Positions 12,908 to 17,727 of a DNA stretch of 47,555 nt are shown here, piece by piece; position 1 is the first letter of the stretch, and each line of letters starts with the position of its first letter. Origin of the DNA: an uncultured SAR86 cluster bacterium (GTDB lineage: Bacteria; Pseudomonadota; Gammaproteobacteria; Magnimaribacterales; Magnimaribacteraceae); assembly GCA_938048695.1 (NCBI GenBank), contig CALIUO010000007.1:1-47555 (forward strand), read 5' to 3'. The notes beneath the pieces are model-generated. The model saw only the letters and a list, made by a program, of their open reading frames with translations, was not told where the DNA came from and did no database searches. The translations under genes and the position numbers were made by a program.

Positions 12908-14469
12908 GAGACGTTTCTTTCTTTTCCTTCCCAGTAAGGAGCACGTAAATCCTTTCTAAGAATTTTCCCGGAAGGATTTCTAGGCAATGCATTAATATGC
13001 TCTACCGTTTTAGGACATTTATAACCAGCAATTTGAGTCCTTACATAGGAAATAACTTCTGCTTCTTTAAGAGGTTCGCCTTCTGCTTGAACGATGAAAG
13101 CCTTTGTAGCTTCGCCCCATTTATCATCTGGGATTCCTATAACTGCAGCGTCTGCAATTTTCGGATGACTCAAGAGAGCATTTTCTACTTCTGCAGGATA
13201 AATATTCTCTCCTCCTGAAACTATCATATCTTTCACCCTGTCATGAATATAGAGAAAACCTTCATCATCGAAATAACCTATGTCACCAGAATAGAACCAA
13301 CCATCTTTTATGGCTTCTTCTGTTGCTTCTGGTCTGTTCCAATAACCTTTCATATTATTAAGGGATTTAATAATGACCTCCCCAACCTCTCCTGCAGGAA
13401 CATCATTATCGTCTGCATCAACAACTCTTAATCCAACATCTTTACCGGCTTTGCCACATGACCTTAGTTTTCCTCTCGAAATGTCATGGTCTTCAGGATA
13501 TAAGAAAGTGATAGCACCGTTAGTTTCAGTTAATCCATAGACTTGCCAAAAATCACACTTCATAAGCTCCATGGCTTTAATTAGTGTATCGTCAGTGATT
13601 GGTGAAGCGCCGTAAATAACTGTCTTTAGTGACGAAAAATCTGTAGTTGCAGCATCAGGATGCTGAACCAAAAATAGTATTACCGCTGGAACGAAAAGAG
13701 CATGCTGAATTTTTTCTTGTTCAATTGATTTAAGAATTAGAGTGGGATCAACTTCTGGAATTATTATGTTCTTTGCACCAGTTACCATGCCGGCAAGTCC
13801 CATATTTGTTCCAGCTACATGAAATATCGGCATACATACAAGATTAATCTCACCTTCATTCATTTCTCGGTACATAGAATCTTCATTCATCAAGAAACAA
13901 CTACTAAAATTATCATTGGTAAGCTGAACCCCTTTTGGATGTCCTGTTGTTCCTGAAGTATAAAGTTGAATTACGTCATCATCCCCTTTACTTTCAAGCA
14001 TAGGATCAACATCTTCATGAGAGTCTCTCCAGGAAGCATAATCTTCCCATTCTTCATGACTCCCCCCTACAGTAATTATCTTTTTAACCGAAGGGATGTC
14101 ATTTTTAATCTCCTCTATTAAGCCAAAGAATTCAGGTCCTACTAACAAAACCTCACTTTTTGAGTCATTTATGATGTAGGCAACTTCAGGAGGTGCAAGT
14201 CTCCAATTGATACCTACAGTGACAGTATTTGATTTGATGGTTCCATATAAGAATTCAAAAAATAAATCAGAGTTTTTACCTAAAAAGGCCACTCTACTAT
14301 CAGGCTTGCAATCTAAACCTATAAGACCTTGAGCAACCTTATTTGCAAATGCATCTAGTTCTTTGTAGGTAGTCTCTTTATCTATAAATTTGTGAGCCAC
14401 ATCGCCACCAGATTCAGCAACTCTCCATCTAAATAATTCTGCCAATGTTTTTTCATATGGTATTTCCAT
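12904..14469 (-). CDS. AMP-forming acyl-CoA synthetase
   Basis: A 521-residue ANL-superfamily ligase. Motifs in order are the P-loop LYTSGTTGHPKGV (about residues 160), CMPIFHVAG, YGASPI, VYGLTETNG, YSGDIG, DRVKDMIVSGGENIYPAEVE and PRNPSGKILRK with the catalytic Lys. It is most like the FadD3/FadD13 medium/long or ring-degradation ligases, but the acid is unknown. The ATG at 14469 is chosen because GGAGGG stands about 7 nt upstream. The in-frame ATG at 14484 would place that ribosome-binding site inside the coding region. It overlaps the AhpD-like gene upstream by 17 bp. Confidence 0.92.
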   Translation of the reverse strand: MEIPYEKTLAELFRWRVAESGGDVAHKFIDKETTYKELDAFANKVAQGLIGLDCKPDSRVAFLGKNSDLFFEFLYGTIKSNTVTVGINWRLAPPEVAYIINDSKSEVLLVGPEFFGLIEEIKNDIPSVKKIITVGGSHEEWEDYASWRDSHEDVDPMLESKGDDDVIQLYTSGTTGHPKGVQLTNDNFSSCFLMNEDSMYREMNEGEINLVCMPIFHVAGTNMGLAGMVTGAKNIIIPEVDPTLILKSIEQEKIQHALFVPAVILFLVQHPDAATTDFSSLKTVIYGASPITDDTLIKAMELMKCDFWQVYGLTETNGAITFLYPEDHDISRGKLRSCGKAGKDVGLRVVDADDNDVPAGEVGEVIIKSLNNMKGYWNRPEATEEAIKDGWFYSGDIGYFDDEGFLYIHDRVKDMIVSGGENIYPAEVENALLSHPKIADAAVIGIPDDKWGEATKAFIVQAEGEPLKEAEVISYVRTQIAGYKCPKTVEHINALPRNPSGKILRKDLRAPYWEGKERNVS

Positions 14470-15070
14470 CTTCTCCCTCCTCATTCCAACCCAAAGGTTT
14501 TAAATGTTTTTCTACGAATTCACTTGGAATATCTTCTAACGAAGTGCCCAAAGTATCATTCCATCTATTTAAGTATCCAAAAAGTGATATTACAGAAACT
14601 ATATCTATAATTTGACCTTTAGAATAATATTTTTTTAAATTATCGAAGTGTTCTTTGGAGCTTAAATTAGGCGCTTTGCCTGCAGCAAAAGCAAGATCCA
14701 AAACTGCTTTTTCTTTTTGACCATAAAGGGGGCTATCTGTGTAGTTTAGAATTTCAGAGATTTTTTTTACACTCACTCCTGCCCTTTCTGCCCCGTGTGA
14801 TGTATGGGCTTGGCAGTATTTACAACCTGACGATAAGCTTGATGCTAATGCTATAAGTTGTTTAGTCTCAAGATCAATTTCCTGAGATTGAAAGATACTA
14901 CGAGCTAATTGTGAAAATGCTATGAGCAATTCAGGTCTCTCAGCCATTAATATATGCGCATTTGGTAAGTACCCCATAAAGGCTTCAACTCCTTCAAATA
15001 AATCATCAAATTTTCGAAAGCTCCCTCTATCAGCATCTCCCAAGAATGATGTTGCGTTTTTGTTATCCAT
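14453..15070 (-). CDS. Carboxymuconolactone decarboxylase/AhpD-like protein
   Basis: A 205-residue AhpD-superfamily protein. The core has the redox pair and histidine in SSGCKYCQAHTSHGAERAG (CxxC, about residues 82-85) and a helical C-terminal half, as in peroxidase-related alkylhydroperoxidase-like enzymes. Function could be peroxide detoxification or a carbon-carbon lyase step; sequence alone does not separate these. It is the first gene of the leftward operon AhpD-like, acyl-CoA ligase, HIT, TauD, EamA, and is divergent from the fusion protein at 15167. Confidence 0.88.
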   Translation of the reverse strand: MDNKNATSFLGDADRGSFRKFDDLFEGVEAFMGYLPNAHILMAERPELLIAFSQLARSIFQSQEIDLETKQLIALASSLSSGCKYCQAHTSHGAERAGVSVKKISEILNYTDSPLYGQKEKAVLDLAFAAGKAPNLSSKEHFDNLKKYYSKGQIIDIVSVISLFGYLNRWNDTLGTSLEDIPSEFVEKHLKPLGWNEEGEDGNTI

Positions 15071-15166
15071 ATTTATATAAATTTACCTATTTTTTTACGA
15101 TATTTTACTTTTTGTGTAATATCAATGAATAATAACTATAAAAGATAGCTCTAATGGAGAGAATGT

Positions 15167-17440
15167 ATGGAAAATTCAACATCAATTCTAGATAAGTTTA
15201 AACAAAACAAAATATTTAAAGTTATTTCTGGCTATGCCATTGTTGCTTTTATTACAGTGCAAATTGCAAGTTTGGTGAGTGATTCGTTTGGTCTTGGTCA
15301 AGAATTCATGCAAAACGTTATTATTGTCTTTCTCCTAATACTTCCATTTATAGCCTTGGTAGCATGGGCCGCTTCATCAAGGTACAGTACTACAAAGATT
15401 TTAGGTATTACATTAGCTGTCTTGTTTACTGGTTATGGAACAGGAAGTTATGTTTGGGTAAATAATTTTGTTCTTCCTGATTTGAAACAAAAATTACAGC
15501 AGGATGATTATGTAGGTGCATGGGATCAACTAAATCTTCTTAACTCTTTTGCTCCTTTTTTCTATAACTCTGAGAGCATCGACTCAGATATAAGTCTTCC
15601 TGTGTCTCTGAATGTAAATGAAGACGGGGTTGATGTTTACTGGAGACCTTATACAGAAAACAAAGAATATGATTGGAGATATGCTGGCAAGACCCCTCTA
15701 TCCCAAATTAGACTTCCAAAAGGTGTGGTTCACTTAAAATTATCTAAAGAAGGTTTTCATACAAAAGAATTAGTTGAAGCAAATCCGAGTTTTACTTTTG
15801 CAAATCATCCGATTCCTCCCTCCTTCGAGATTTCTAAAATTGAAATGAATAAAGACGGAACTGTACCGGAAAATATGATCGCTATAGATGGAGGACGTTT
15901 TATACCTGCGCTCATCGGTGAAGGCGTTACTGACTATAAGCTGAGTCCTTACTTTATAGATAAATTTGAAGTTAGTAATAAACAATTCAAACAGTTTATA
16001 GATGATGGTGGTTACGAAATATTTCAATATTGGAAAGATATGGAGTTCATTAAAGATGGAGAATCGCTCTCTTGGGAAGAAGCAAAAGAGCTGATGGTAG
16101 ACTCCACAGGAGTCAATGGACCATTATCTTGGGAACTAGGATCGTATAGGAGTGGTGAAGAGAACTTACCTGTAACCGGGATTAGCTGGTATGAAGCACA
16201 AGCCTACGCTAGATATAAGGGTAATATTCTTCCGCCAATGTATCATTGGGCAAAAGCTGCTTTCCCGATAACAGAAATAGCTGCACCTATCTCACCAGTT
16301 CTACTTAAGAAAAGTAATTTTTCAAATAAATCTATCCATGAGATAGGTAAAAGCGGGGTTGGCGCTTATGGAACTTATGATATGGCTGGAAATGTTAGCG
16401 AATGGTCATGGAATATTTTTGGAGGCAGAGGACTGACATTAGGAGGTAATTATAAAGATGCTGCTTACCTTGCTTCTTCAGCTACCCCATCTCCTAGATT
16501 TACACGCTCAGAATTGATAGGTTTTAGGACAGCTCGTCTATTAAATCCTAGAGATCTTAATCCATTTGGTGACCCCATCAATAGACCGGTTCCTAAACCA
16601 GCAAGTTTTTATAAACCTTTTACTGATTCCGAATTTGAATTTTATTCAAGAAATTTTGAGGTTGGATCAAAAGATTTAAATACTAAAGTTGTGTATTTTG
16701 ATGACTCCCATCCTGTTTGGGATAAAGAGAGAGTTCAAATTGATGTTGGTTATGGAAATGAAAAAATGGATATCCTTATTTTTAAGCCCAAAGGAACAGC
16801 TTTTAATAGCCTTGATTCAGTAATTCTATATCCGGGCGCTAATTACTATAGGACTCCACCAGAAATAGATGAAGTGAATCCAGGAGAATATGGATTGGAT
16901 TTTATAATTAAGTCTGGAAGAGCTCTTATATGGCCAGCTTACAAAGGTTCAATGAATAGAATAAGTGATATGAACATTAGCTTTCCTAGAACACAAGATC
17001 ATATGAGATTATTCAGGCAACTCCTGTCAAACTGGACCGTTGACACCTCAAGAACAATAGATTTTTTAGAGAGTAGAGAAGAATTTAATTCAAATATTTA
17101 TTATGTTGGAATGAGTTATGGGGGTCTTTATACAACTCATGTGCTGCTATTTGAAAAGAGGTTTAAAGCTGCAGTATTGTATGTAGGTGGTCTTACACCT
17201 TATATACCCCCTATGTCTGACGGTAAAAATCATCTCCCTAGGATGAAACTTCCCATACTTATGTTGAATGGAAGACAGGATTACTTAGTACCTGAATCTG
17301 CACCTAGATCAATGTATGCATCATTAGGCACGCCCGAAGAAGACAAGAAATTAATTTTTTATGATTCTGGACATTGGCCTTTACCCAGGAATCAAATGAT
17401 CAAAGAAACTTTGTCTTGGCTAAATAAATATAAGGATTAA
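15167..17440 (+). CDS. Membrane-anchored PEGA-like / FGE-sulfatase-like / alpha-beta hydrolase fusion
   Basis: A 757-residue multidomain protein. Residues about 17-100 hold three membrane helices like the anchor of membrane-tethered cyclase/TolB-type regulators. Residues about 145-200 look like a PEGA-type beta module (PLSQIRLPKGVVHLKLSKEG). Residues 237-458 are a formylglycine-generating-enzyme (SUMF1/EgtB/PvdO) fold: MIAIDGGRFIP, FEVSNKQFKQF, PVTGISWYEA, GTYDMAGNVSEW, GFRTAR. Residues about 490-757 form an alpha/beta hydrolase with S650 (GMSYGG), D705 and H736 (DSGHW). No cysteine occurs anywhere, so the FGE copper-binding cysteines are absent. In relatives a protein kinase precedes these modules (from memory); here membrane helices take its place. 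GGAGAG precedes the ATG. Confidence 0.85.
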   Translation: MENSTSILDKFKQNKIFKVISGYAIVAFITVQIASLVSDSFGLGQEFMQNVIIVFLLILPFIALVAWAASSRYSTTKILGITLAVLFTGYGTGSYVWVNNFVLPDLKQKLQQDDYVGAWDQLNLLNSFAPFFYNSESIDSDISLPVSLNVNEDGVDVYWRPYTENKEYDWRYAGKTPLSQIRLPKGVVHLKLSKEGFHTKELVEANPSFTFANHPIPPSFEISKIEMNKDGTVPENMIAIDGGRFIPALIGEGVTDYKLSPYFIDKFEVSNKQFKQFIDDGGYEIFQYWKDMEFIKDGESLSWEEAKELMVDSTGVNGPLSWELGSYRSGEENLPVTGISWYEAQAYARYKGNILPPMYHWAKAAFPITEIAAPISPVLLKKSNFSNKSIHEIGKSGVGAYGTYDMAGNVSEWSWNIFGGRGLTLGGNYKDAAYLASSATPSPRFTRSELIGFRTARLLNPRDLNPFGDPINRPVPKPASFYKPFTDSEFEFYSRNFEVGSKDLNTKVVYFDDSHPVWDKERVQIDVGYGNEKMDILIFKPKGTAFNSLDSVILYPGANYYRTPPEIDEVNPGEYGLDFIIKSGRALIWPAYKGSMNRISDMNISFPRTQDHMRLFRQLLSNWTVDTSRTIDFLESREEFNSNIYYVGMSYGGLYTTHVLLFEKRFKAAVLYVGGLTPYIPPMSDGKNHLPRMKLPILMLNGRQDYLVPESAPRSMYASLGTPEEDKKLIFYDSGHWPLPRNQMIKETLSWLNKYKD

Positions 17441-17727
17441 TTATTATTTTGTATTAAATCAAGCTCTTTAAACTCGTGATCAATACTTAGAGAGATTAGC
17501 TTTCTCCATAAAGGTTCAGATATATTTTTGTCCAAACCGCAAGATTCTCCAAATGTGGTTACTTTAGAAATTACATCTTCAATTCTCTCTTCATCAATAA
17601 TTAAATTTTTATCATTTTTTACTAGGGCCGCCATCTCGACACATTTCTGACGTCTAGCCAATAACATTACCAACTCTTTGTCGAGAAGATCAATTTCTTC
17701 CCTAACCTCTTTCATAGTTAAATCCAT
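17437..17727 (-). CDS. Chorismate mutase, AroQ type (monofunctional)
   Basis: A 96-residue all-helical protein matching the AroQ chorismate mutase domain, which converts chorismate to prephenate for phenylalanine and tyrosine synthesis. The first helix reads REEIDLLDKELVMLLARRQK, with the N-terminal Arg and the following Arg pair in the expected substrate-binding places. A Lys (LVKND) and an Asp/Glu cluster (DEERIEDV) follow. It is not fused to prephenate dehydratase or dehydrogenase. Its stop is interlocked with that of the convergent fusion gene. A role in a non-aromatic pathway such as isochorismate lyase cannot be excluded. Confidence 0.85.
   Translation of the reverse strand: MDLTMKEVREEIDLLDKELVMLLARRQKCVEMAALVKNDKNLIIDEERIEDVISKVTTFGESCGLDKNISEPLWRKLISLSIDHEFKELDLIQNNN

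Follow-up and report, generated by a model that had tools for sequence, protein, structure and literature searches.

In the SAR86 window (the whole analysed stretch of 47,555 nucleotides), a single gene coding for a 757-residue protein lies in a slot whose border genes were recognized by comparison with related genomes. The features of the locus are as follows:

14453..15070, minus strand: gene of the carboxymuconolactone decarboxylase family, left border (slot comparison)
15100..15135, plus strand: upstream block TTTTACTTTT...TGAATAATAA, kept in 7 of 8 alleles and matched once in the window
15167..17440, plus strand: FGE-like/alpha-beta hydrolase membrane protein (757 aa, Cys-free, ATG start)
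15212..15463, plus strand: three-helix N-terminal membrane anchor, residues about 16-99 (hydropathy, helices, matches to TPR-protein N-termini)
15677..15763, plus strand: weak PEGA-like stretch, residues 171-199 (Pfam, below cut-off)
15875..16534, plus strand: FGE-sulfatase (SUMF1-like) domain without catalytic cysteines, residues 237-456 (Pfam)
16670..17437, plus strand: alpha/beta hydrolase (S9/DLH-like), residues 502-757, with Ser650/Asp705/His736 (Pfam and homologue alignment)
17437..17727, minus strand: chorismate mutase type II, right border (slot comparison)

The open reading frame is regarded as real and not as a chance product, since counterparts of 59-71% identity without internal stops occur in other genomes; its coordinates and motifs had been given correctly in an earlier note on this DNA, as judged from the ORF call and an alignment of eight homologues. 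The Pfam search assigned the central part of the protein to the family of the formylglycine-generating enzyme (FGE) with 82 bits (cut-off 23.3; E 7e-23), the FGE-sulfatase profile (PF03781) being matched nearly full length (positions 5-254 of 255), and the motifs DGGRF, GISWYEA, DMAGNVSEW and GFRTAR are present and largely invariant among the eight homologues; at the sequence level, the family assignment made in the earlier note is thus borne out. The C-terminal part exceeded the cut-offs of both matching hydrolase models (DLH, 25.8 versus 21 bits; Peptidase_S9, 25.1 versus 22.6 bits). The Peptidase_S9 match recurred in 8 of 8 homologues, and the triad of Ser650 (in GMSYG), Asp705 and His736 is invariant across them, in agreement with the intact hydrolase described before. 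Of the PEGA-like module also named there, a weak stretch at residues 171-199 stands, its score (17.4 bits) lying under the Pfam cut-off of 20.8; five of the eight homologues match PEGA at E<0.05 (best 2.6e-4).

Hydrophobic helices are located at residues of about 16-38, 49-70 and 77-98, so that the proposed membrane anchor does precede the FGE domain; hydropathy displays the first two helices clearly and the third more weakly. AlphaFold2 models calculated from two-row alignments reached a pLDDT of 29 (full length) and 33 (hydrolase alone) and for this reason were used for the N-terminal helices only, where they agree with a count of three. Lysine and arginine residues precede helix 1 and are found between helices 2 and 3, and the first loop is acidic; together with the hydropathy, this charge distribution suggests an N-inside/C-outside orientation with the large C-terminal part in the periplasm and not, as had been surmised, at the cell surface. 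For residues 3-71, matches were obtained at the N-terminus of TPR proteins from other Gammaproteobacteria; the anchor is therefore a mobile module.

Formylglycine synthesis by FGE requires active-site cysteines. The window protein contains none among its 757 residues, and the count is likewise zero in 8 of 8 full homologues, all of which thus lack the active-site cysteine pair of a functional FGE. Formylglycine synthesis is consequently excluded for the whole family; the refuting observation named in the earlier note, homologues with conserved active-site cysteines, did not turn up, and its statement that copper-dependent formylglycine chemistry is impossible holds. Given a mean cysteine content of 0.87% in the window, a protein of this length should contain about 6.6 cysteines, and zero would be unlikely; nevertheless, the exported and membrane proteins of the window are generally devoid of cysteine. 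Since SecD (616 aa), SecF (304 aa), YajC (97 aa) and a DegP-like protease (462 aa) are Cys-free as well, the absence mainly reflects export and is not odd in itself; after this comparison, and with FGE-type folds lacking FGE chemistry being common, the lack of cysteine was dropped as a distinctive feature. In the genome assembly, which is about 85% complete, neither a second FGE-domain protein nor a clear formylglycine-dependent sulfatase was found; the sole PF00884 match scores far better as type I phosphodiesterase/NPP, so that no client of an FGE is seen.

The protein has a narrow distribution. A scan of genome contigs returned a single relative (L001, a SAR86 metagenome-assembled genome, 70% identity), and the gene also occurs in eight more genomes of the same family, in one case as a fragment at the end of a contig; no genome contains two copies. 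Full homologues were not found in the 26 other genomes of the order or, at the thresholds used, in the 369 genomes of the class and the 398 of the phylum; matches in these two sets covered only the FGE domain, only the anchor, or free-standing hydrolases, and no FGE-hydrolase protein outside the window's own family was encountered. The large FGE-bearing ORFs of G373, G275, G121 and G320, selected from the class-level search, were considered as candidates and discarded, as they gave no sign of the same architecture; by eye, they represent tandem FGE-like domains or EgtB-like proteins. Plasmid records matched the FGE part at low identity and never the hydrolase.

The slot is filled by the FGE-hydrolase gene in 7 genomes and empty in 13 genomes from three genera (including the one-contig genome G005), in which the border genes are direct neighbours and the matches of the decarboxylase-family gene and chorismate mutase lie 32-106 bases apart. 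In two of the seven filled slots, the gene is accompanied by one or two additional ORFs that belong to no known family; G012 alone has in its slot an ORF of 295 aa that lacks a Pfam match (L045, 7993-8880). In G010, the gene is situated at a contig end adjoining chorismate mutase, and in G019 it lies beside the decarboxylase-family gene, with one redoxin-like gene between them and a different right flank. The upstream block may be a promoter or control element of the gene and be carried along with it. The decarboxylase-family gene itself (14453-15070) is 69% identical between G000 and G012, compared with 92-95% for the other neighbours; given this greater divergence, it may have been exchanged too.

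Identities and trees conflict with descent along the genera. G012 is the closest carrier according to its flanking genes (92-95% protein identity), yet its gene copy is only 61.6% identical to that of the window, while the copy of G019, a member of another genus, reaches 70%; between G012 and G029, likewise of different genera, the FGE-hydrolase protein is 87.9% identical and the flanking genes 73-84%. The protein tree pairs G000 with G019, G012 with G029 and G021 with G022, and the AU test rejects the genus clades for it (p 1.7e-6 and 6e-6); conversely, when the four flanking genes are concatenated, the genera come out with 100% support and the pairs of the protein tree are rejected. Based on this conflict (AU p about 1e-6), gene exchange between SAR86 genera is well supported. 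That no genome has two copies speaks against simple paralogy, and differential loss of old duplicates retains a residual probability as the alternative. In G012 and G034 (different genera), about 0.9 kb beside the slot (L045, 7131-7993; L047, 11377-12233), comprising chorismate mutase and an ORF of 178 aa that has no Pfam match, are identical at 95-100% of DNA positions, with flanks of about 77-80%; this stretch either was transferred recently or is an artefact of assembly, the genomes being mostly metagenome-assembled and single loci potentially chimeric.

That the roughly 60% identity between close relatives arose by fast evolution in place, with no exchange involved, might be argued from the very slow flanking proteins (dN 0.03-0.04) and from synonymous sites near saturation; the topology conflict (AU p about 1e-6), the cross-genus pairs that resemble each other more than their own flanking genes do, and a dS of 1.07 for G012/G029 as opposed to saturation in most flanking genes render this reading highly improbable. 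Fast diversifying evolution was rejected on the basis of the trees and of a dN/dS of about 0.06 in the two closest, measurable cross-genus pairs. The FGE domain and the hydrolase are equally conserved (mean pairwise identity 0.70 and 0.68, respectively); variation is greatest in the linker/PEGA-like region and in one loop of the hydrolase (about 601-615), and no loop of the FGE domain proved hypervariable. The low dN/dS indicates a conserved function rather than an arms race, and purifying selection on a working enzyme fits better than an arms-race receptor. This bears on the unlikely scenario of an envelope sensor-effector or a phage- or competitor-related gene, in which the FGE-like domain would recognize a foreign ligand, the hydrolase would act on that ligand or on the cell's own envelope, and alleles would be swapped under frequency-dependent selection. 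Patchy presence, the single slot and swapping between genera are consistent with it, as are the replacement flexible genomic islands of aquatic bacteria that were linked to phage exposure (PMC4033161) and the use of FGE-type domains as variable sensors in diversity-generating retroelement (DGR) and conflict systems; besides the dN/dS and the lack of a hypervariable FGE loop, however, there was no match to a PADLOC defence model, no defence gene adjoins the gene, and no relative was found in viral contigs with search patterns from the N-terminal part only. A broader variant, in which streamlined SAR86 genomes would maintain a slot for a single-gene envelope cassette whose alleles, each an FGE-type recognition domain plus hydrolase, would be interchangeable and swapped between genera as frequency-dependent selection dictates (through phages, competitors or the choice of substrate), is regarded as rather speculative.

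As to the biochemical role, the FGE-like domain could conceivably be catalytic by non-cysteine chemistry, e.g. at an iron site as in the EgtB-like sulfoxide synthases, with the hydrolase finishing the product. The domain does score on the EgtB and SenA models and on EgtB structures, but far below the model cut-offs (65 versus 360 bits for EgtB, 51 versus 420 bits for SenA), and Pfam detected no DinB domain, which provides the iron ligands of EgtB, in the window protein; such a catalyst is therefore considered very improbable. According to the earlier note, related proteins have a Ser/Thr kinase ahead of the FGE-hydrolase pair, and a signalling hydrolase might have descended from such an ancestor by loss of the kinase and gain of a TPR-type anchor. 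The mobile character of the anchor, a module common to TPR proteins, would agree with this descent, which nonetheless appears doubtful: Pfam searches gave a Ser/Thr kinase domain neither for the window protein nor for its homologues, and no kinase-FGE-hydrolase protein was found among the sampled class and phylum genomes.

The explanation favored here, and the probable one, is a periplasmic serine hydrolase that is tethered to the inner membrane, contains an FGE-like binding module and is encoded by a one-gene cassette that is swapped at the slot. Three N-terminal helices would hold the accessory hydrolase at the inner membrane, with the PEGA-like, FGE-like and hydrolase parts facing the periplasm, where Ser650, Asp705 and His736 are predicted to cleave an ester or peptide substrate. 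The FGE-type C-type-lectin fold was described as a general ligand-binding scaffold (PMC5006420), and, formylglycine chemistry being excluded, the scaffold function suggested in the earlier note appears to be the best reading of the sequence: the Cys-free domain may act as a rigid module by which the substrate or a partner is brought into position. Together with its conserved upstream block, the cassette would enter and leave SAR86 genomes and be exchanged between genera at one slot, most simply, as we infer, via homologous recombination through the flanking genes. A domain of FGE fold that is unable to make formylglycine, yet is kept under strong purifying selection beside an intact hydrolase, offers a clean case for studying its role, and the slot represents a small natural system for inter-genus gene exchange in a genome-reduced bacterial group that ranks among the most abundant in the ocean.

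Compared with known systems, the central domain resembles the SUMF1-like/FGE family (PF03781) in sequence family, motifs and near full-length profile match and differs from it by the missing cysteines, the fused anchor and hydrolase and a genome without a clear sulfatase. FGE-type folds without FGE chemistry are common: besides EgtB, SUMF2, the GldK/PorK lipoproteins and the DGR variable proteins TvpA and Mtd share the C-type-lectin fold without formylglycine chemistry (PMC5006420). In contrast to the window protein, SUMF2, GldK/PorK and the DGR proteins have no joined hydrolase, and the latter undergo a retroelement-driven hypervariation that is not seen here. The membrane-anchored TPR proteins of Gammaproteobacteria are alike in the first about 70 residues, i.e. 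the helical anchor, which is followed by TPR repeats in their case and by FGE and hydrolase domains in the SAR86 protein. The FGE-hydrolase fusion is known in kind, as a survey of prolyl oligopeptidase homologues names the formylglycine-generating-sulfatase domain among the fused domains (PMC4522959); with these S9/DLH hydrolases, compared by listed architecture alone, the SAR86 protein has the one-chain fusion in common and differs by its three-helix anchor and PEGA-like part. The replacement flexible genomic islands (PMC4033161) correspond to the slot in their fixed position and in being exchanged between lineages, which was ascribed to homologous recombination in their case, whereas the SAR86 slot comprises a single gene, is sometimes empty and is subject to strong purifying selection. 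The FGE-hydrolase fusion and the non-catalytic FGE folds are thus already known; new and unexpected are the presence or absence of the gene at one slot and its swapping between genera.
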